Part shown: positions 38,139-39,706 of the stretch, in pieces | Numbering within the stretch: position 1 is the first letter of the stretch | Layout of the letters: every line of letters starts with the position of its first letter | Source: Halorubrum depositum | GTDB lineage: Archaea; Halobacteriota; Halobacteria; Halobacteriales; Haloferacaceae | Reading direction: 5' to 3' | NCBI RefSeq assembly: GCF_007671725.1 | Contig: NZ_VCNM01000001.1 | Location: forward strand, 434,001 to 498,000 | Length of the DNA: 64,000 nt | Notes under the pieces: generated by a model | The model's database searches: none | Seen by the model: the letters and a program-made list of their open reading frames with translations, nothing else | Told to the model about the DNA's origin: nothing | Position numbers and translations under genes: made by a program

Positions 38139-38240
38139 GCGGGCCGTAGCGATCGACCGGATTTAGCGGTTGGGGTCCCCGCGCCGAGCGCTCCGCGAGT
38201 GGGAAGGGGTTTGTCGTCGGAGCCTAAACGGTCCTCGCAG

Positions 38241-39143
38241 ATGTCTCACCGGGACGACCTGCGCGAGGCGGCCGACGCCCTCGGCGGCTCCATCGTCGTC
38301 TGCGGCCTCGGCGCGTACGCCGACCGGCTCGCCCGCGCCGAGTTCCGCGACGCCCGATACGCGTCGGCAGCTGAGCTCCTCGCGGAGACGCCGCCCGCGG
38401 GCGAGCGCAGCGCGGTGCCGGCCGCGGCCGACGCGTCGCCGCCCGCGGCGGTCGTCGTCGCGCTCGATCCCGACGACCTCGGCGAGGACGACGGGGCGAG
38501 CGAATCGCTCCGGGCGCTCGGCGGGCTCGACGCGTTCGCGGTCGCGGTCGTCCCAGCGGCAGCGGCCGACGGCGACGCGCTCTCGGCGGTCCGTGACTCG
38601 GTCGACGCCGTGTTGCTCGCGGAGGGCGACGCCGTCGAGGCGGCGATCCGCGCGTTCCTCGCGACGGTCCAGGAGCCCGGCTTCGTCAACCTCGACCTCA
38701 CCGACGCGGAGACGGTGCTCTCGGCCGGCGTCGCCGCGCTAGGGACCGGGACCGCCGACCGCGACGCCCCCGGGGACGCGGTCGCGTCGGCCTTCGACGG
38801 GCTCCCCGAAGGCGTCGACGCGACCGACGCGAGCGCGGTCCTCGTGGACGTCGTCGTCGACCCGGAGACCAGCATCGCCGCCGCGACCGACGTGATCGCG
38901 GCGGTCCGCGAGCGGATCGGCGCCGACGCCAACGTGATCTGGGGCGGCGCGGTCGACGAGGCGGCCGCGGCGGAGCTCGCCGTCCGGCTCGTCGTCGCCG
39001 GCGTCCGCCACGCCCCGCCGCTCGCCGCCGGCGACCCGTGTCCGCGCTGCGGGGCGCCCTTATCGGCGTACGAGTTCGGCGCCCGCGAGACGCTCTCGTG
39101 CGACGCCTGCGGCTACTCCGGCATCGCGGTGCGACGCGGGTGA
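38241..39143 (+). CDS. FtsZ-like C-terminal domain protein with zinc ribbon, no GTPase loop
   Basis: 300 aa. Residues 130-240 strongly resemble the FtsZ second (C-terminal) domain: a helix like FtsZ H10, then QEPGFVNLDLTDAETVLSAG (compare FtsZ PGLINLDFADV), AALGTG, a hydrophobic strand AVLVDVVVDPETS, and ADANVIWGGAVDE (compare DANIIFGAVID). Residues 15-110 look like a Rossmann-type N-terminal part, but the tubulin signature GGGTGTG is missing, so GTP binding is unlikely. The C-terminus is a zinc ribbon (Cys267, 270, 287, 290). The role is unknown; it could interact with FtsZ/CetZ or nucleic acid. A convergent RHH gene follows. Confidence 0.8.
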   Translation: MSHRDDLREAADALGGSIVVCGLGAYADRLARAEFRDARYASAAELLAETPPAGERSAVPAAADASPPAAVVVALDPDDLGEDDGASESLRALGGLDAFAVAVVPAAAADGDALSAVRDSVDAVLLAEGDAVEAAIRAFLATVQEPGFVNLDLTDAETVLSAGVAALGTGTADRDAPGDAVASAFDGLPEGVDATDASAVLVDVVVDPETSIAAATDVIAAVRERIGADANVIWGGAVDEAAAAELAVRLVVAGVRHAPPLAAGDPCPRCGAPLSAYEFGARETLSCDACGYSGIAVRRG

Positions 39144-39166: not shown

Positions 39167-39619
39167 TCAGCGCTGCGGCTCGTCCGGCGCGGCGCGCGGC
39201 TCGCGCTCCGGAGGGGCCCGCCGCGAGGCGGGGGACGACTCCTCTCGGTACAGCCGGAGGAGGTCCTCTAAGACGACCGCGTGCCGGTCGCTCGGGACGT
39301 ACTGATGGTCGATGAAGTCCTCGGCGTCGCTGAAGTTCCCGCGGAGCGCCAGCTTCCTGACGAACGCGACGGACTCGAAGAACGGCGGGTGGTCAGCGTC
39401 GGCGTCGGCGCCGAGCTCGCGCTCCGCCCGCGGCATCACCTCCCCTCTGATCTCCTCGTAATCGATGGTCTCCGGCTCGTAGTCGTCGAGCACCTGGTTC
39501 AGCACGTAGTCGGTCGAAAAACGGTAGAACTCGGACTTGCTCTCGAACTGGCCGCTCTCGACCAGCGACTCGATCTCGCCGACCACAGACTCGGGAAACC
39601 GGACCGTGCTCTTCACCAT
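39167..39619 (-). CDS. Ribbon-helix-helix (CopG-type) regulator, 150 aa
   Basis: Residues 1-45 are an RHH domain: MVKSTVRFPESVVGEIESLV supplies the DNA-reading beta strand and first helix, and QFESKSEFYRFSTDYVLNQ the second. Residues 50-125 are a helical domain of unknown role (NFSDAEDFIDHQYVPSDRHA), and the tail is disordered. This N-terminal RHH plus longer domain recalls haloarchaeal CdrL-type regulators, but I cannot confirm it. It is convergent with the FtsZ-like gene. A palindrome 27-40 bp upstream of its ATG is a likely autoregulatory site. Confidence 0.82.
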   Translation of the reverse strand: MVKSTVRFPESVVGEIESLVESGQFESKSEFYRFSTDYVLNQVLDDYEPETIDYEEIRGEVMPRAERELGADADADHPPFFESVAFVRKLALRGNFSDAEDFIDHQYVPSDRHAVVLEDLLRLYREESSPASRRAPPEREPRAAPDEPQR

Positions 39620-39645
39620 GCGTCCACGAGGCGCCCCCACCCGTA

Positions 39646-39659
39646 TTACATTTTTGTAA
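39646..39659 (-). promoter_or_regulatory. Palindromic operator/promoter of RHH gene
   Basis: TTACA-TTTT-TGTAA is a perfect inverted repeat, 27 bp upstream of the ATG (39619) of the RHH regulator. It is the only AT-rich stretch there, so it probably overlaps the TATA box; binding by the RHH dimer would block TBP. It also lies between this gene and the 3' end of the esterase gene. Confidence 0.5.
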
Positions 39660-39706
39660 GTCGACAGAAACTTCGCGGGTGGGGGCGGCGAAAAGACCCC
39701 CACGCG

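Follow-up and report, generated by a model that had tools for sequence, protein, structure and literature searches.

The gene analysed here lies on the plus strand of a 64,000-nucleotide stretch of Halorubrum depositum DNA (the window) and encodes an FtsZ-fold pseudo-GTPase with a zinc ribbon, labelled FZ. Judged from its sequence, FZ belongs to a real family of FtsZ paralogues in which the GTPase is dead; as far as the literature was searched, this family is previously uncharacterised. We propose, with a probability of roughly 0.45, that FZ is a one-faced mimic of FtsZ, which would dock on the GTP face of FtsZ and act as a minus-end cap or form a dead-end dimer. The gene and its parts were located in the window as follows.

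38196–38240, plus strand: conserved block directly upstream of the FZ start codon, kept in seven Halorubrum species
38241–39143, plus strand: FZ gene, 300 amino acids and stop, ATG start (open reading frame, Pfam, NCBIfam, AlphaFold, family alignment)
38241–38630, plus strand: degenerate, shortened GTPase half, residues 1–130 (model secondary structure, residue retention, dN/dS)
38631–39008, plus strand: end of H7, T7 and FtsZ C-terminal domain to S10, residues 131–256 (Pfam, NCBIfam, structure match)
38634–38672, plus strand: shortened central helix H7, residues 132–144 (model; FtsZ T6/H7 stretch deleted in the alignment)
38676–38705, plus strand: T7 "synergy" loop, residues 146–155 (PGFVNLDLTD), intact (conservation in the family and in close species)
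38928–38945, plus strand: S9 strand, residues 230–235 (ANVIWG), with I233-W234-G235 invariant (family alignment, close species)
39030–39119, plus strand: zinc ribbon CPRC-x16-CDACG, residues 264–293, standing where FtsZ has its C-terminal tail (Pfam, invariant cysteines)

The Pfam domain FtsZ_C (PF12327) matched residues 163–255 of FZ (E 7.5e-9; score of 36.2 bits, with the cut-off at 27) and was found in 16 of 16 family members at E ≤ 0.01. NCBIfam TIGR00065 (ftsZ) matched residues 129–257 (E 7.5e-13), the score of 48.5 bits missing the equivalog cut-off of 295 bits. The best solved-chain match in a phmmer search against the PDB was FtsZ of M. jannaschii (E 9.5e-12). The motif GGGTGTG is absent from the sequence, as the first-pass annotation had claimed, and the GTPase domain PF00091 was not among the Pfam matches of the protein. 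When the genome of H. depositum was searched with PF00091, five other genes were found and FZ was not among them. These are FtsZ1, FtsZ2, two CetZ and a further divergent tubulin-domain gene (G000:C2:843842-844249, minus strand, PF00091 E 2.9e-12). FtsZ1 of this genome matched FZ better than FtsZ2 did (4e-16 vs 3e-13).

Structure prediction would have refuted the first-pass annotation by showing no FtsZ-like second domain; it gave the FtsZ fold across both domains instead. The AlphaFold2 model, which was built from nine sequences only, had a mean pLDDT of 72.9 and a pTM of 0.69, with a pLDDT below 50 for the T7 residues 146–151. Its elements follow the order of FtsZ (S1-H1, S4, H4, S5, H5, S6, short H7, H8, S7, H9, S8, H10, S9, S10). 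The best solved structural match was S. aureus FtsZ (7oja; Z 17.2, rmsd 3.2, 223 residues), all of the 50 best VIA-align rows were FtsZ, spanning model residues 9–256, and the best Foldseek hit had an E-value of 2.3e-13. FZ is thus predicted to have a two-domain tubulin/FtsZ fold over residues 9–256. The first-pass annotation had recognised an FtsZ-like C-terminal domain; this part stands with the PF12327 and TIGR00065 matches, but the likeness is not limited to it, the N-terminal half being modelled as a tubulin fold as well. In residues 1–130 the strands S1, S4, S5, and S6 remain, whereas the pocket residues of T1–T4 are lost and the segment is fast-evolving.

A profile search of 392 genomes sampled from the order detected intact copies of FZ in 25 of them, spread over five genera and three families. 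In Halorubrum itself, 14 of 52 genomes carry close orthologues and a fifteenth has a decayed remnant; the remaining members come from four further genera. Intact members scored at least 123 bits and ordinary FtsZ about 60 bits or less, with a single remnant (69.8 bits) in the gap between them. The separation is far beyond chance, and the number of intact carriers, 25, is unambiguous. Apart from the members known from the order, a search of 393 genomes sampled across the phylum found no FZ. All members share one layout, a degenerate N-terminal part of about 130 amino acids followed by T7 with the C-terminal domain and by the ribbon. In a tree of 54 proteins calculated without the ribbon, the 25 FZ rows grouped together with 100/100 support and were set off from FtsZ1, FtsZ2, and CetZ; the eight CetZ rows lay on one side of a 100/100 branch and FZ elsewhere. 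FZ is a separate branch, with branch lengths too long for the tree to fix its exact root, and the FtsZ1 rows were without resolution at the base. Some members have an FtsZ1-like N-terminus (MTTDEELRVAADALxESVLVVGVGEAGEAA; pattern MTDEEL...VVGCGxAG). Because of these N-termini and the stronger match to FtsZ1 of its own genome, FZ is most likely an old paralogue of haloarchaeal FtsZ that arose from FtsZ1, as far as sequence comparison can tell. The loss of the GTP loops and the gain of a ribbon extend across the whole family, and FZ should therefore not be a normal polymerising GTPase, in agreement with the initial reading of the sequence. At locus L009 (817-1056, genome G013), an FZ remnant has lost its N-terminal two thirds and the ribbon cysteines are partly replaced.

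Which letters of FtsZ were kept was determined in a joint alignment. Among its 21 haloarchaeal FtsZ1/FtsZ2 sequences, 129 positions count as invariant (95% or more). Only seven of these 129 letters are kept in 25/25 FZ proteins, namely N150, D152, and D155 in T7, I233, W234, and G235 in S9, and V202, a core valine. N150, D152, and D155 are the conserved N-D-D of the FtsZ T7 loop, corresponding by motif to N208/D210/D213 of S. aureus FtsZ (SaFtsZ), and the T7 pattern NxDxxD is present in all 25 members. The hypergeometric probability of finding six of seven kept letters in T7 and S9 is about 9e-9, which serves as a guide only, as the set was chosen afterwards. At the 95% level, FZ keeps 1/35 of the invariant positions in T1–T4, 3/7 in T7, and 4/4 in S9. 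CetZ, which has its own GTP loops and served as the control within the superfamily, shows the reverse pattern (19/35, 1/7, and 0/4, respectively). Since CetZ has changed letters in T7 and S9, the fold does not depend on the exact T7 letters. Conservation is only moderate in helix H10 and elsewhere on the bottom face of FZ. The dN/dS ratio was 0.69 in the N-terminal domain (residues 15–130) vs 0.275 in the C-terminal domain from H7 to S10, 0.00 in T7/H8, and 0.20 in the ribbon; the end of H7, T7, and H8 contained six silent sites and zero replacement sites across six close species. T7/S9 and the ribbon of FZ are under purifying selection.

In filaments of SaFtsZ, the catalytic water and the metal shell next to the GTP of one subunit are held by N208, D210, and D213 in the T7 loop of its neighbour; water bridges connect T7 and S9 with the phosphates, and the mutations N208L, D210N, and D213N suppress assembly (PMC8936486). 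FZ appears to have lost the nucleotide-bearing ("top", N-terminal) polymerisation face, so that it should neither bind GTP normally nor carry another subunit. It seems to retain the T7/S9 ("bottom", C-terminal) face, the one that covers the GTP of the adjacent subunit in a filament. With one half of the composite active site and without the other, FZ could make a filament-type contact only with its T7 face against the GTP face of FtsZ. Docking by the T7 face would take place where the GTP face of FtsZ is exposed, either on a free monomer or at a filament's minus end, and the docked FZ would be a minus-end cap or part of a dead-end dimer. Once docked, FZ could contribute its two T7 aspartates to the active site, making it complete and setting off hydrolysis of the GTP of that FtsZ. 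That FZ may cap or regulate FtsZ, as the first-pass annotation suggested, gains support which that annotation had not seen from T7 N-x-D-x-x-D and S9 I-W-G as the sole FtsZ-defining motifs in every member. The partner is probably FtsZ1. CetZ is a less likely partner, since both the tree and the relict at the N-terminus speak for FtsZ, with FtsZ1 as the likeliest. Several observations count against the docking model. The spread in the genus is patchy (14/52) and the gene has decayed in one species, from which FZ is considered dispensable; its neighbourhood varies and shows no recurrent link to division genes; H10 and further parts of the bottom face are conserved only moderately; and T7 residues 146–151 have a low pLDDT in a model built from nine sequences. 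A more far-reaching version, in which FZ is an archaeal, FtsZ-derived minus-end (GTP-face) factor, a pseudo-subunit capping or nucleating filaments with T7 catalysis in trans, is less likely than not; what gamma-tubulin does for microtubules would be a loose parallel.

The zinc ribbon was matched by PF06827 (23.4 bits, cut-off 21.3). Its paired CxxC...CxxC with cysteines at 267, 270, 287, and 290 is found exactly where the first-pass annotation had placed it, and the four residues are invariant in the FZ family, that is, in all intact orthologues aligned. With the ribbon in place of the C-terminal tail of FtsZ, the usual tail-mediated anchoring at the membrane is unlikely for FZ. Most likely, the ribbon positions or recruits the FZ complex through protein or nucleic acid. 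It resembles small free-standing haloarchaeal ribbon proteins, and this likeness, together with that to TFIIB-like ribbons, is also compatible with another explanation, in which the FtsZ fold was recruited as a scaffold for a role unrelated to FtsZ, the ribbon (binding nucleic acid or protein) being the active part and T7 being kept for a new binding role. The fast evolution of the N-terminal domain and the missing division-gene context would fit as well, but the explanation fails to account for a T7 and S9 that are FtsZ-like letter for letter amid drift elsewhere, the reverse of CetZ. We regard it as improbable, although it survives best among the alternatives to a docking FtsZ mimic. A stand-alone zinc-ribbon protein of about 60 amino acids with a ribbon of the FZ type is encoded in the genome of H. 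depositum itself at G000:C1:406071-406163 (minus strand, locus L082) and has homologues across Halorubrum.

The nearest rival to the minus-end cap or dead-end partner leaves the interface unchanged and differs in the outcome. FZ would act through the GTP face as an inhibitor of free GTP-FtsZ monomers, sequestering them and/or speeding up hydrolysis as a GTPase-activating factor. The retention of T7/S9 speaks for both outcomes alike, and both catalytic aspartates are kept, which goes beyond the needs of docking alone. Against the inhibitory outcome speaks the published argument that a binder of the N-terminal face would rather promote nucleation and stabilise filaments, unless it sequesters or also alters the subunit (PMC11938149). 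The FtsZ inhibitors MciZ, SulA, MinC, and MipZ all occupy the C-terminal (plus-end) face of FtsZ (PMC11938149). These inhibitors resemble the proposed FZ in acting on a polymerisation face of FtsZ; however, they are not derived from FtsZ, whereas FZ itself carries the C-terminal face and would bind the opposite, GTP-bearing one. The inhibitory reading is also favoured by a plant protein, ARC3, an FtsZ-like chimera that inhibits Z-ring assembly (PMC5855766). Overall, it seems slightly less probable than the reuse of the fold as a scaffold.

Two further explanations are very unlikely. FZ might bind nucleotide in a remodelled pocket and form filaments of its own or mixed ones, as an "FtsZ3"; a relict T1 loop in some members (GCGDAG, GVGEAG) would suit this, but all members have lost the T2 and T3 residues as well as GGGTGTG, a deletion has removed the T6/H7 stretch, and PF00091 fails to detect FZ. 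A functionless, decaying ftsZ duplicate, to which the remnant with lost cysteines in one relative and the relaxed N-terminal domain might point, is hardly reconcilable with strong purifying selection on the C-terminal domain and ribbon, or with a single architecture across three families in which T7 and the cysteines are invariant.

In comparison with known systems, FZ shares with haloarchaeal FtsZ1 and FtsZ2 the fold, the FtsZ_C domain, T7 NxDxxD, and S9 IWG, and some members share with FtsZ1 an N-terminal leader and a relict T1. It differs from both in the lack of GTP-binding loops, the shortened N-terminal domain and H7, the ribbon instead of the C-terminal tail, and its separate clade. ARC3 keeps the N-terminal part of FtsZ and is not known to have a normal T7; FZ, in contrast, keeps the opposite half, and the two are not homologous as chimeras. 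They are alike in being FtsZ-derived with an extra C-terminal module (MORN in ARC3), and ARC3 regulates Z-ring assembly (PMC5855766). CetZ proteins are, like FZ, halobacterial paralogues of the tubulin superfamily (PMC9856176), but they keep the GTP loops and have a changed T7. Patchily distributed "non-canonical TSF" proteins have been reported, among them one from N. pharaonis (PMC9856176). FtsZl1 and FtsZl2 are likewise divergent FtsZ-like families, and FtsZl1 also occurs in a haloarchaeon; unlike FZ, both keep the GGGTG(S/T)G loop, and FtsZl1 is without an alignable T6-H7 and C-terminal domain (PMC2875224).

If the docking model is true, FZ would regulate FtsZ filaments from the end that no known regulator uses. 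According to published structural work, the known inhibitors target the plus-end (C-terminal) face (PMC11938149). The FZ family would serve as an existing tool for probing the minus end, and with it one could ask directly whether T7 provided in trans suffices to set off GTP hydrolysis. With FZ, the tubulin superfamily would gain a branch of pseudo-GTPases, and the poorly known division machinery of archaea a candidate regulator, in genetically accessible haloarchaea.

The conserved block upstream of the start codon is probably the promoter or a regulatory site of FZ itself. No constant neighbourhood, operon or recurrent link to division genes was found at the loci inspected across the clades, and the context of FZ gives no functional lead common to all clades. 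A search for plasmid or phage carriage of FZ gave no match; the sole viral-contig match (L168) turned out to be an unrelated HNH-like protein. In genome G323 (L071, 5959-12526), ftsZ1 is located about 4.5 kb from FZ, which was not seen at other loci inspected. In H. depositum, FZ is part of a sucC-fumC-BolA block that is kept in its subclade, and is flanked there by a divergent methyltransferase gene and a convergent gene for a ribbon-helix-helix protein. The N-terminus of the ribbon-helix-helix protein (39167–39703, minus strand), whose gene also adjoins or lies near FZ in some relatives, weakly resembles CdrS (NCBIfam E 2.5e-4, cut-off missed). CdrS controls ftsZ2 in haloarchaea (PMC7439475). 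The assignment of the adjoining gene as CdrL was rejected, as it has only the weak CdrS match, is without a zinc ribbon, and is inconstant in its adjacency. Genes of CetZ2 were reported beside type IV pilus regulons (PMC9856176). The neighbours differ again at other FZ loci. The other Halorubrum subclade has FZ in divergent orientation to the gene of a type II/IV secretion ATPase (L036, 1402-5906; similar order in L037 and L064-L068), beyond which a TadC-like gene is located in most of the loci.
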